IMG/VR virus record: IMGVR_UViG_3300020183_000395
Span: 1 to 26,438 of that record
Direction: 5' to 3' (one strand)
Source: a virus
DNA length: 26,438 nt
Part shown: positions 5,360 to 22,859 of the stretch, piece after piece
Layout of the letters: each line of letters starts with the position of its first letter
How positions within the stretch are numbered: the stretch's first letter is position 1
Made by a program: the position numbers and the translations under genes
Notes under the pieces: model-generated
Database searches by the model: none
What the model was told of the DNA's origin: nothing
What the model saw: only the letters and a program-made list of their open reading frames with translations

Positions 5360-7936
5360 TTAGAATTCTGCACTTTGTTTAATTCTATTTACCCTTTTTT
5401 GTGTATCTGATATTTCTGTTTCTACAACATAAGCACGGACAGGTTGAGGTTTGTTTTCATTAAACACATTCCCTGATGAAACATTGGGGTCTTGTGCAAA
5501 GGATGGGAGTAAGTTTTGACCCCCACCTGCTCTATTTATTAAATCTAATGTCTGTGGAAACATAGATGTTGAACGGGCATTTATCACCGCTTCACCAGGA
5601 GCCAACATCGCAGGGACACTATCTACATCGGGAGAGCCATTACCAGGAACAATACCCCCACGAGCCGCTGTAAAGTTCTGTGAAGCAATTGTTCCAATTT
5701 GAACTGCTGATGCAATACCTGCCATACCTGCTAAAATAAGGGAAAGGGGGAATGGGGCGCTTGCAAGAGCGTTCAATACTGCTAAGGCTCCCGCTTGAAT
5801 TGCGTTTGCTATATTTAACGCCTTTTGTCTTCTAAATGACTGAACTTGTAATTTCTTTGTTTCGGTCTCTTGTTTAATTTTATCTTGTTTAACCAACGCA
5901 TCATATTCTGCTTGGGTGATTTGTCTATTTTCAAGTTGGGATTTTAACATTTCTTCTTCAACTCTACCCTCTTCCATAATTTGATTTACTCTACTTGCAG
6001 TCCTTTGGTTTTGTGCTTCATTGATTGCACTTACAATTGCCATAGTGGCATCACCCCACATTTGAACTTCTTGGGCTATTTTTTTAAATTTTTCTTGTTG
6101 TTTCTTAAATTCTTCCTCCGCTTTCTTCTTATCAATTTCTTTTAGTTTATCATTATATTTTTGTTGAGCTAAAAGTGATAATTTATCATATTCTTCTTGG
6201 TTGATTTTCTTTTCTTCTAATAGAACTTTGTAGGCGTCTAAATCATCTTGATATGCGTTTTCTGCTAATTTGATTTGTTTTGCAAACCCCTCTGCCATCA
6301 ACTCGGTTTCTTTATCCCTCAACGCCTTTTTTTGTGCCAATAATTCTTCATTTGACTTTTTATCAATTTCAAGTAAGGCATTATCAAGTTCAATTTTCTT
6401 GTTTGATAAAATTTCTTTTTCTTGTTCGGTTAAAGTGTTTATAGAATTTAACCTTAATTGAGCCAATTTTTCGTTATAATCCTTTTCACTAATTTGTCGG
6501 GATATAAATTGTTCGTCTAATGCCTTTTTTTCATCGTCAATTCTTTTTTCCAAGAAGTCCTCCACATATTCTTTATTTGCCTGAATTAAAACTTCTTTTT
6601 GTTTTTGTTTTTCATCAGTCATAATTGCAATTCGTGACTTGGCTTGTTCTCTTTCTTTTGCTAAATTATCAGTAAAATCTTTATCCATTTGGGCTACCAA
6701 ATCTTGTCTTCTTTTTTCTTCTTCCTTGTTTGCTTCCTCTTGTATTTTTTTCTTATCTTCTGCGGACTTTTTAGCGGCAGCATTTCTATTGTCAGCTGCG
6801 GTTTTATCAATCGCCTTCAAATCAAGTTCGGCTTGGGCTAATTTTTCTTTTAGAGCCGATTGGGTTTTTTCCAATTCTTTAATTGTCTCCTCTCCTTTTG
6901 CTGCCACTTCATCGGGGTCAAATACTTGTTTGGCAATCCAAGATGTCATATCTTCTCTTAAACTTGTTGATTTTTCAATAACCCCAAGGTATTCTAATGC
7001 TTTTGTGATTTCATCAATCGTTCCTAAAATTAGTTGGATTGGTGCAGTTAAAAACATAATAAAACCTTCTAAAATTGCTTTGTTTCGTCTTGACGCTTCA
7101 ATCTGACTTTTTAATGTTTTCTTTTCATTCTCCAATTGCACATCCCCTTTTTGAATTTCTTGTTTGTATGATTTGATTTTCAAAAGTAAGATTTCTCTTT
7201 CACTTTTTCCTGCAAGTTTTAATTGGGCAACACTACCTTCAAGTGCTTCGGTTCTTTCGTGTGCTGCTTCAACATCCTTTTTTGATAATTCATTTAACTT
7301 TTTTTGTTCTGCTGATACACCACTAATCGCTCCTTTGATGTCATCCCAATATGCAACAAGGGCCCCAACAGCAATAAGTAATACCCCTATACCTGTGGCG
7401 GCAATACCTGTCTTTACACCTTGTAATGCTGCCTTGGCACTTTTACCAAAAGCATTAAATGAAGATTTCATATTGTCAATTTCATCACCCATACTTCCAA
7501 GTGCTGTAATGGATTGGGTAAATGCCATTGCCGCTTGTAGTTTCATCATCATTTTTTGGGTGTCTTCACTTTCAGACCCAAATAATGCCATACTAGAAGT
7601 GACTGCTTGGAACCCATTAGCCCCAATTTTAAGTGCAGAACCTAAACCTTTACCCAAGTTTTCTACGGGGGAACCAGCGGTTGCTTGAATTTGTGCTGCA
7701 ACATCCCCCATTGTATCTTTTAATTCACCCGCTCTTCTATTTAATGCTTGATATTTTGCCGATGAGGTGTCCCCTGCCGCTGCCAATTGTTGCATTTGCA
7801 TGGTAACCTCCTTCAATTGTTTTCTCAGAGGTATTGCACTCTCGTTTGCTTTTTGGATGTCGTCAGATATTTGTCCTACGGTTTCTTTGGAGTTCCCTGC
7901 ATTTACATTTATATTTACTTGTGCGGTAGTAGCCAT
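5360..7936 (-). CDS. Tail tape measure protein
   Basis: An 858-aa tail-length ruler. Residues 1-90 are helical with heptad-like repeats; a hydrophobic segment lies at about 175-196 (TGIGVLLIAVGALVAYW); residues about 210-640 are long K/E-rich coiled coils; a second hydrophobic block lies at about 717-757; then comes the glycine-rich G-I-V-P-G ... DSVPAMLAPGEAVI motif diagnostic of tape measure C termini in Gram-negative siphophages. By the usual 0.15 nm per residue rule the tail would be around 130 nm. It follows the distal tail genes instead of preceding them, which is unusual. The start MATTAQVNIN has an A/T leader and 11 nt separate it from the gene upstream. Confidence 0.95.
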   Translation of the reverse strand: MATTAQVNINVNAGNSKETVGQISDDIQKANESAIPLRKQLKEVTMQMQQLAAAGDTSSAKYQALNRRAGELKDTMGDVAAQIQATAGSPVENLGKGLGSALKIGANGFQAVTSSMALFGSESEDTQKMMMKLQAAMAFTQSITALGSMGDEIDNMKSSFNAFGKSAKAALQGVKTGIAATGIGVLLIAVGALVAYWDDIKGAISGVSAEQKKLNELSKKDVEAAHERTEALEGSVAQLKLAGKSEREILLLKIKSYKQEIQKGDVQLENEKKTLKSQIEASRRNKAILEGFIMFLTAPIQLILGTIDEITKALEYLGVIEKSTSLREDMTSWIAKQVFDPDEVAAKGEETIKELEKTQSALKEKLAQAELDLKAIDKTAADNRNAAAKKSAEDKKKIQEEANKEEEKRRQDLVAQMDKDFTDNLAKEREQAKSRIAIMTDEKQKQKEVLIQANKEYVEDFLEKRIDDEKKALDEQFISRQISEKDYNEKLAQLRLNSINTLTEQEKEILSNKKIELDNALLEIDKKSNEELLAQKKALRDKETELMAEGFAKQIKLAENAYQDDLDAYKVLLEEKKINQEEYDKLSLLAQQKYNDKLKEIDKKKAEEEFKKQQEKFKKIAQEVQMWGDATMAIVSAINEAQNQRTASRVNQIMEEGRVEEEMLKSQLENRQITQAEYDALVKQDKIKQETETKKLQVQSFRRQKALNIANAIQAGALAVLNALASAPFPLSLILAGMAGIASAVQIGTIASQNFTAARGGIVPGNGSPDVDSVPAMLAPGEAVINARSTSMFPQTLDLINRAGGGQNLLPSFAQDPNVSSGNVFNENKPQPVRAYVVETEISDTQKRVNRIKQSAEF

Positions 7937-15295: not shown

Positions 15296-15784
15296 TTAAG
15301 CCAATGGTATTATACAATTTAAATGTTTTACCTTCAGTGGAAATTGAGCCACCCATCCACATACCTTATCAGGTGTTTCATCAACGGCGGGGAAACAAGA
15401 TGTATCCCCATCTATTTTAAGTCCATAGATGTGCCAATTTACTTCTATTTCTGTAATCAAATCTTGAAGATATTGTAGGGTATCTGATAATATCTCTTGT
15501 GAATTGTCTGAATTAACCCCATTTATATCAAGGTAATTTTGTTGGATATTTATTTTATCCATTAACAAAACTGTAATCCCATATCGGGGGACTGCTGTTT
15601 TATTTGTTACGCTAATGGTTGATTGTTGGTCTAGTGACAACCACAAATAAGGAAACTCCATTTGTCTTGATGTCCCTATATCAGAAGTGGGCCCGAAACC
15701 AAAATCTTTAATGAAGAAATGGTTTTGGGCAAACGAACTAAATAAATTTATTAGCTGATTTAATGTTATAATATTTACACTCAT
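15296..15784 (-). CDS. Probable tail terminator / minor tail protein
   Basis: A 162-aa protein with alternating strands and one long helix (SDNSQEILSDTLQYLQDLIT, about residues 91-110). Its size, an FPYLWLS strand near the N terminus and the position next to the gp10-like gene fit tail-terminator proteins of Bacteroidota phages. The start ATG overlaps the stop of the frameshift extension upstream (ATGA), so its translation is coupled to that product. There is no catalytic motif. The role is inferred from neighbours. Confidence 0.6.
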   Translation of the reverse strand: MSVNIITLNQLINLFSSFAQNHFFIKDFGFGPTSDIGTSRQMEFPYLWLSLDQQSTISVTNKTAVPRYGITVLLMDKINIQQNYLDINGVNSDNSQEILSDTLQYLQDLITEIEVNWHIYGLKIDGDTSCFPAVDETPDKVCGWVAQFPLKVKHLNCIIPLA

Positions 15785-16589
15785 AGGGCACCTGTTTTAG
15801 TTTGTTGTTCTATTTGGTTTTTTTGATAAAAGTAAGACACCCAATTTAGACACGACACATAATTCTTTTCGTAAATCTCTACATCGGTGCAGTTAAGTTC
15901 CTTCATTAACATATGAACTAACCCCAACCATACATACTTATCATCCATCTTAAACCTTGTTTTTATTTTGTTAAACCTATCTTTTGTTTTCTCTTCTGTT
16001 TCGGAGGGTTTCCTAAAGATTGGTTCGTATTGTTTTGTAATATAAACCCTCCATCTAAAAAAAAATTAAATATGTTAAATACCTTTGATACTGGTAGTTT
16101 AGCAAATGTGGGGGCTCTATCTAAAAAGTCCCCCTTGAAACTTTCCAAATTACCCTTATTAGTTTTCTTTCTTAGAAAGACACATAACAACTTATCCATC
16201 ACAAGGAATAGATTGTTGTTTGATTGGGCTAAAAGTGTTTCTATTGATATGATTTCCCCCATAGTAAATTTACTAAAATCCTTTTTAAAGAAGTAGGTTT
16301 CTCCTTCTATATCAACCCCTTCACCTAAATCTTCTGGTATCATTTCCGTATTAACAAACTCCATAGCTTGTGCTAATTTACTAAACTCTTCATAGGGGAG
16401 TTGGTATATTATGTCTTTATCAATCGACCCTAATAGTGATATGGCATCAATTGCCTGTTCTAATACGGGTTGATTATCACGGGGGACACTAAATAGTTTA
16501 GCGAACTCCTGTATAGACACCTCATCCCAATTAGTAGGTAGGGTGAAGCTGGTTACCTCATCGTCAATTTCAACATTAACTTCTAACAT
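15781..16589 (-). CDS. Tail assembly chaperone, long form made by -1 frameshifting (269 aa)
   Basis: Predicted fusion of the first 178 codons of the 208-aa gene with a 91-codon frame entered by a -1 slip at the heptamer 16062-16056. The -1 frame is closed by TAA immediately before the T run, is open from the slip site to TGA at 15781, and has protein-like content: a W-R-V-Y strand, a charged K/E helix, then a hydrophobic helical segment starting MDDKYVWLGLVH and ending near NYVSCLNWVSYF. This is the lambda gpG/gpGT arrangement, in which the rare long form recruits tail tube protein to the tape measure. An independent start at 15948 (55 aa) is the alternative. The stop overlaps the next gene's start as ATGA. 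Confidence 0.75.
15963..16589 (-). CDS. Tail assembly chaperone, short form (gpG-like, 208 aa)
   Basis: A 208-aa acidic, mostly helical protein. It starts with a beta hairpin (LEVNVEIDDEVTSFTLP) and a W-D-E-V-S-I-x-E-F segment, then an LLGSIDKDIIYQLP helix and a central FFKKDFSKFTMGEIISIE stretch. This layout is typical of tail chaperones of Gram-negative phages, which coat the tape measure during tail assembly. Normal decoding past L178 adds a 30-residue basic tail (ending KRKQKIGLTK). A -1 slip at codon 178 would replace that tail with 91 residues. The gene lies just upstream of the tail-completion genes, but the tape measure gene is 8 kb further on. Confidence 0.7.
   Translation of the reverse strand: MLEVNVEIDDEVTSFTLPTNWDEVSIQEFAKLFSVPRDNQPVLEQAIDAISLLGSIDKDIIYQLPYEEFSKLAQAMEFVNTEMIPEDLGEGVDIEGETYFFKKDFSKFTMGEIISIETLLAQSNNNLFLVMDKLLCVFLRKKTNKGNLESFKGDFLDRAPTFAKLPVSKVFNIFNFFLDGGFILQNNTNQSLGNPPKQKRKQKIGLTK
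16003..16062 (-). other. Programmed -1 ribosomal frameshift signal (slippery heptamer plus stem-loop)
   Basis: On the minus strand a run of nine T (16065-16057) then A gives the heptamer T TTT TTA (16062-16056) exactly in the X XXY YYZ frame of the 208-aa gene; its last codon is codon 178. Three bases later GGAGGGTTT (16052-16044) pairs perfectly with AAACCCTCC (16011-16003), a 9-bp stem with a 32-nt loop, extendable by a U-G pair. The 3-nt spacer is shorter than the usual 5-9 nt, so the lower stem may open at the ribosome. The nine-T run could also allow transcriptional slippage. Confidence 0.75.
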
Positions 16590-22205: not shown

Positions 22206-22859
22206 ATGGATTATAATGAATTATACAAATATATCAATAAGTTATTTTCTACTTATTTTTATACTTACAAATTAGATGATGATGAAAAAAATGATGCAAT
22301 ACAGGATTGTATTCTAAAAGTATTGGAAAAAGAAAAATCGGGTATTTTAGAACCTTCAATAGAAAAAAATAAGAATTATATTTTTATCACAATCAAAAAT
22401 TATTTAATTCATTTTAACACTCAAAAATTCAAAAAAAAAACTTATCAATTAAATGATAATATGGTTGCATATTATGATTATAATTTAGAAGATGAAATAA
22501 ACAGGCAGTTTGAACTAAATTCAATAAAACAATACCTAAATTCTAATAATACATCTGCTGTTGTTAAATTGATTATATTTAGAATTCTCAATGATTTTAC
22601 TTGGACTGAAATAGCAGATGAATTAGAATTATCTGAGCGACAAGTCAAACAAAAATTATACAATTTTATCCAACGAATAAATAGAAAAACCAACTATAAA
22701 TATAAAATAATCTTCAACGACGGAAGGGAGCAAAATATCATAAATAAAAAAAAACTATTACAGACAATCAAAATGTCCCCCGATACATTCAATGGGTATG
22801 CTAAACTAAATAAAACGACTTTCAAAAATTATAAAATAGAATTTTTAACAAAAAATTAA
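22206..22859 (+). CDS. Second sigma-70-like protein (rightward unit)
   Basis: A 217-aa protein with sigma-factor layout. Residues about 25-80 resemble region 2 (KNDAIQDCILKVLEK, then NYIFITIKNYLIHFNTQKFKKK), and residues about 129-157 form a region 4 helix-turn-helix (F-T-W-T-E-I-A-D-E-L-E-L-S-E-R-Q-V-K-Q-K-L). About 50 extra residues follow, with a second short basic helix region (NKKKLLQTIKMSPDTF) that could be another DNA-binding element. It is transcribed away from all structural genes and is very A-rich even for this genome. The ATG follows a pure A/T leader. It may activate the leftward unit or its own promoter; a DNA-binding regulator without sigma activity is possible. Confidence 0.6.
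   Translation: MDYNELYKYINKLFSTYFYTYKLDDDEKNDAIQDCILKVLEKEKSGILEPSIEKNKNYIFITIKNYLIHFNTQKFKKKTYQLNDNMVAYYDYNLEDEINRQFELNSIKQYLNSNNTSAVVKLIIFRILNDFTWTEIADELELSERQVKQKLYNFIQRINRKTNYKYKIIFNDGREQNIINKKKLLQTIKMSPDTFNGYAKLNKTTFKNYKIEFLTKN

Follow-up and report, generated by a model that had tools for sequence, protein, structure and literature searches.

The window, a stretch of 26,438 nucleotides from a virus (IMG/VR record IMGVR_UViG_3300020183_000395), encodes on its minus strand a 208-residue protein (16589–15963), whose residues 1–177 form a conserved N-terminal domain and would correspond to a gpG-like product. Towards its 3′ end, the gene contains a homopolymer of nine Ts, the putative slip site (T9; 16065–16057), read in frame 0 as AAT TTT TTT TTA. 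This run contributes to the in-frame heptamer T TTT TTA (16062–16056; codons 177–178, with TTA as codon 178) and, as it is nine nucleotides long, also contains T TTT TTT in frame one codon earlier. The −1 frame is closed by a TAA immediately 5′ of the run (16068–16066) and is then open for 91 codons, followed by a TGA (16056–15781). This TGA (15783–15781) forms an ATGA overlap with the start codon (15784–15782) of the next gene, also on the minus strand, which encodes a probable tail or neck protein of 162 residues (15784–15296) with 77–85% identity in the window's two nearest relatives, L003 and L006. Past the heptamer, a 3-nt spacer, GAT (16055–16053), leads into a 9-bp stem formed by the arms GGAGGGTTT (16052–16044) and AAACCCTCC (16011–16003), while the gene for the tape measure protein (5360–7936, minus strand; match to PHROG_24676, E-value 4.2e-17) is located about 8 kb downstream. 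The original prediction had combined these elements into an HIV-type −1 frameshift signal within a tail chaperone gene at a great distance from that of the tape measure protein, and heptamer, stem, reading frames and distance are all as it described them.

A −1 shift at the run would append the tail, the gpT-like part, to the N-terminal domain, giving a predicted fusion of 178 + 91 = 269 residues. In line with the prediction, the first 36 codons of the tail contain no ATG, GTG or TTG, and the −1 stretch stays open in only 2 of 5,000 dinucleotide shuffles. We collected homologous loci, numbered up to L239, by searches with the terminase, with the gene itself and with its alignments, some of these loci being overlapping stretches of one contig. 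The N-terminal domain is present in 239 sequences, and wherever both halves could be placed (232 of 232 loci), the tail follows in the −1 frame; among these, L003 and L006 share 49–56% identity with the fusion. Computed over 358 pairs of related sequences, the synonymous fraction of changed codons just past the run is 0.42 in the −1 frame, compared with 0.17 in frame 0 and 0.08 in the +1 frame, and it reaches 0.64 in the −1 frame beyond the frame overlap. The tail thus bears the mark of purifying selection in the −1 frame, and as the synonymous excess is found right past the run, this frame is translated from the run onward. The comparison shows that the gene makes two products, the 208-residue protein and the 269-residue fusion of its N-terminal domain to the −1 tail, and it supports the frameshift as well as a comparison can.

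Two simpler accounts of the split gene were considered. The tail might be a separate small protein initiated within the −1 frame, for instance from the ATG of a 55-residue open reading frame (15948–15781, minus strand) that the window does contain. However, this codon is replaced by isoleucine in both L003 and L006, the run marks the beginning of the conserved protein, with purifying selection already evident there, and the common methionine of clade B (in FGVM) falls into the middle of the domain. As the start of the 55-residue frame is not conserved, it is not the way the tail is expressed, and we rejected internal initiation as highly improbable. Likewise, homopolymers are prone to sequencing and assembly errors, which could split one ordinary gene, but 232 loci, drawn from many metagenomes, share this frame relation, and a T9 run with a −1 tail is also found in the isolated Nonlabens (Persicivirga) phages P12024L and P12024S. 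Within the window, the T9 run is not an assembly error, since a separately assembled contig from another metagenome (L002; 99.8% identity over 6,019 nt) carries the identical nine Ts. These independent assemblies led us to reject an error as well, as the least probable of all explanations.

The family is found mostly in uncultured phages. When the window, clade-A, clade-B and clade-C proteins were compared with cultured phages by tblastn, only the clade-B query reached a match, namely P12024L/S, and the search of genome contigs returned no locus for clade A and one for clade B. Pfam and PHROG scans with both halves of the window's gene gave no usable match.

At the junction, the homologues conserve the T run instead of the combination of heptamer and stem that had been proposed as the signal. 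Among the 232 loci, the run comprises nine Ts in 191, ten in 22, eight in 14 and five in 5, the last forming a single lineage outside of which no run is shorter than eight. While all 232 loci keep the tail and 227, that is, every homologue with at least eight Ts, keep an in-frame T TTT TTN within the T8–T10 run, the run sits in three different codon phases. These counts did not bear out the refuting outcome named with the prediction, namely homologues devoid of the heptamer or with a −1 frame interrupted by stops. The window's group reads AAT TTT TTT TTA and the majority GTT TTT TTT TGG or TAC, whereas CGG TTT TTT TTT GTT represents the phase seen in 11 of 114 tree rows and GAT TTT TTT TAA the group with eight Ts. 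The predicted T TTT TTA is retained in close relatives, but its place is taken by T TTT TTT, read in a different codon phase, in most of the family. On the tree of these 114 rows, a quick one with many unresolved branches, the phase changed at least 15 times. In the 11 rows in which the next codon does not begin with T, the run is invariably lengthened leftward instead (TTT TTT TTT), and this extension holds it at nine in all six independent pairs (p = 0.031). Furthermore, NNT TTT TTT is found at all 112 non-redundant junctions with at least eight Ts, whereas Phe-Phe is encoded by TTTTTT in only 42% of cases elsewhere in these phages. Together, these patterns suggest that the T run itself serves as the signal.

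Such a run could be used in two ways, between which the junction alone cannot discriminate, since a nine-T homopolymer always includes an in-frame U UUU UU. In the first, RNA polymerase would slip on the T run and insert one U, so that a minority of the mRNAs would carry U10 and be read directly into the tail. Nine A or T residues are the usual threshold for such slippage in many bacteria, and the transcript of Shigella mxiE gains one U at its run (PMC1088944); the Escherichia coli polymerase requires at least seven Ts and restores the frame at 5% with seven and 10% with eight (PMC6260861). These values lie within the range required for a GT-like product. A junction homopolymer of eight to ten Ts is present in 227 of 232 homologues, independently of codon phase. 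In the second, the ribosome would undergo a programmed −1 shift on U UUU UUA or U UUU UUU, assisted by the stem near the window, and the T9 run would be a by-product of the heptamer and the required flanking codons. The in-frame T TTT TTN in each homologue with at least eight Ts agrees with this, but six to seven Ts suffice for the ribosome, and yet the runs have eight or more everywhere except in the T5 lineage and stay at nine while the codon phase shifts. Conversely, hydrophobic residues needed in both frames can explain part of the run length, and some of the phase-0 junctions may have spread by recombination, as suggested by several of them being nearly identical in DNA; both points weaken the case for the polymerase.

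Two groups of homologues also speak for the ribosome. The T5 lineage (L126:3513-3806, L134:1163-1456 and L135–L137) keeps the −1 tail with a junction of TAT or CAT followed by TTT TCA, which offers only the tetramer T TTT; we looked for a start codon in its tail and found none, and no strong stem is present (z about −1). With a run too short for the bacterial polymerase, this lineage must shift by means other than a T8–T10 run. In the T8 group (L145–L158, of which L151 has nine Ts), a frame-0 TAA lies directly past TTT TTT, so that the short product terminates at the slip site, a layout that looks ribosomal. Given these lineages and the constraint on the flanking amino acids, it would be too strong to conclude from the nine-T length by itself that slippage is transcriptional.

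The stem of the window has a predicted energy of −13.0 kcal/mol (z −3.0), equalled by 1 of 200 shuffles. Contrary to what an HIV-type signal would lead one to expect, it is confined to the window's subclade. L006, L096 and L099 have a GC core of 6 bp at the corresponding position (z −2.3 to −4.1 across these three and the window) and one compensatory pair, A-U in the window and C-G in the other three, but this covariation, a single pair in four sequences, does not exceed that of shuffles. Weaker stems are found in L003 and L101. We sought 3′ RNA structure in the clade-A loci L098, L100 and L102–L111 and found no excess, nor is there any, on either side of the run, in the average over 59 non-redundant clade-B sequences; the in-frame X XXY YYZ heptamer extends to all homologues with at least eight Ts, but a conserved 3′ stimulatory structure does not. 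Being restricted to close relatives, the stem is a local addition. It would most simply act on ribosomes, and slippage of the polymerase gives it no evident function, although the great majority of homologues do without it. The family-wide T run and the restricted stem could also be reconciled by an ancestral polymerase slippage to which the window's lineage added a stem-assisted ribosomal shift, so that polymerase and ribosome now contribute comparable shares in this phage, but we consider this unlikely.

The other genes of these phages provide a separate line of evidence. In 908 of them, runs of at least nine Ts or As occur at only 0.15 and 0.18 times the frequency expected from synonymous shuffles, respectively, and for T the avoidance begins at a length of seven. 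Runs of at least seven Ts are avoided both with an in-frame heptamer (observed/expected 0.47) and without one (0.30), and the depletion of T6 slippery sites is no greater in frame (0.80) than out of frame (0.82–0.84), which counts against the ribosomal route. Intergenic A/T runs of six to nine, by contrast with those in genes, occur at expectation. A cost of this kind, independent of phase and limited to genes, is more readily explained by slippage of the polymerase than of the ribosome. Part of the depletion in coding sequences could nevertheless stem from selection against slippage in replication. As separate observations, intergenic A/T runs of at least ten are absent from all loci (0 vs 11 expected), which could reflect either assembly or biology, and a 217-residue gene on the plus strand of the window (22206–22859), sigma-factor-like by eye only, carries an A9 (about 22746–22754) and an A10 (about 22431–22440), which is unusual given that coding runs of at least nine As are rare in these phages.

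On balance, we tentatively favor transcriptional slippage, yielding a U10 mRNA, as the main route across the family, but would put its chances at slightly below even. Programmed ribosomal frameshifting ranks close behind as a serious contender; it can draw on the TAA of the T8 group, on the T5 lineage and on the stem, and frameshifting in GT genes is known and has been treated as ribosomal (PMC5009743; PMC10885494). Under transcriptional slippage, a −1 shift of the ribosome on U UUU UUA or U UUU UUU can contribute too, and in the window's subclade the 3′ stem would be added on top. The broader proposition, that this tail-assembly gene family sets the ratio of its short and long products at transcription via polymerase slippage on T9 and that some lineages switched to ribosomal slippage or added it, seems to us about evenly balanced between true and false.

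The proposed fusion resembles gpGT of phage lambda in that two overlapping frames are joined by a conserved −1 shift, in 232 of 232 loci and with frame-specific selection, linking a small N-terminal domain to a T-like tail; a role in tail assembly is probable here. In lambda, however, the shift is ribosomal and uses another slippery sequence instead of a T8–T10 run. Moreover, a defining feature of G/GT pairs, a location directly before the tape measure gene, is not seen here; the gene adjoins the terminase, and about 8 kb with several genes separate it from the tape measure gene. AlphaFold2 modeled the N-terminal domain (177 residues) with a pLDDT of 93.6 and the tail (91 residues) with one of 79, which corresponds to moderate confidence. 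The tail model has no clear fold match, and fold and profile searches of the PDB returned no credible one. The fold of the N-terminal domain is matched by 41 viral proteins in BFVD at E-values of at most 1e-3, nearly all of them uncharacterized, which include the sequence homolog from P12024S, a protein from Flavobacterium phage 6H and one labeled 'Tail assembly chaperone protein' (E-value 6.8e-4). Pfam family PF10109 (Phage_TAC_7) is matched weakly in 2 of 46 members (E-value 0.016). Mainly because of the two-product architecture, we consider the product to be probably a tail-assembly chaperone; of the originally predicted gpGT-like fusion, the frameshift is borne out, while the chaperone label is only probable. 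By analogy to lambda, coating of the tape measure protein would fall to the short form, and the fusion would bring in tail tube subunits at a set ratio.

The 191-residue match in phage 6H probably stems from gp10 (L240:10047-10927, minus strand), which lies in the module preceding the tape measure gene and is followed, in a 305-nt gap, by an unannotated open reading frame of about 100 codons in another frame. We rejected it as an instance of the same system, as its junction differs.

Other known systems share individual features. Shigella mxiE has a coding-strand T run (T9), at which one inserted U would join two frames just as proposed here, but it encodes a regulator in a bacterium, and its slippage has been measured, whereas slippage is inferred for the phage genes. 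HIV-1 gag-pol shares the heptamer U UUU UUA and a 3′ stem with the window's own subclade; here, however, the phase of the heptamer and the stem vary within the family, the spacer measures 3 nt and the homopolymer nine. As GT frameshifting itself is known, the T-run signal is presumably a variant on it; our literature search for transcriptional slippage in tail assembly chaperones, which was incomplete, returned only a review and two prediction papers, and we do not claim priority.

If the favored reading is true, a homopolymer drifts between codon phases while the same two-protein output is maintained, which would mean that it is the ratio of the products, as opposed to the machinery, that is under selection, in a frameshift that is otherwise a classic conserved ribosomal event. 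The natural variants, with runs of five, eight, nine or ten Ts and with or without a stem, would be useful to separate slippage of the polymerase from that of the ribosome. Furthermore, hundreds of phage genomes hold a gene that ordinary annotation splits into two. The cultured counterparts, genes 40/41 of P12024L (L012:9980-10674) and 38/39 of P12024S (L013:2980-3674), have the T9, the −1 tail and a position directly downstream of the terminase gene; they are about 29% identical to clade B and are annotated as two hypothetical proteins with no frameshift, but resemble one frameshifted gene. Lastly, a metagenome-assembled genome labeled Pseudooceanicola contains two copies of this gene family, one on PAPR01000004.1 (L094) and one on a second contig of that assembly, which are probably phage contigs binned with their host.
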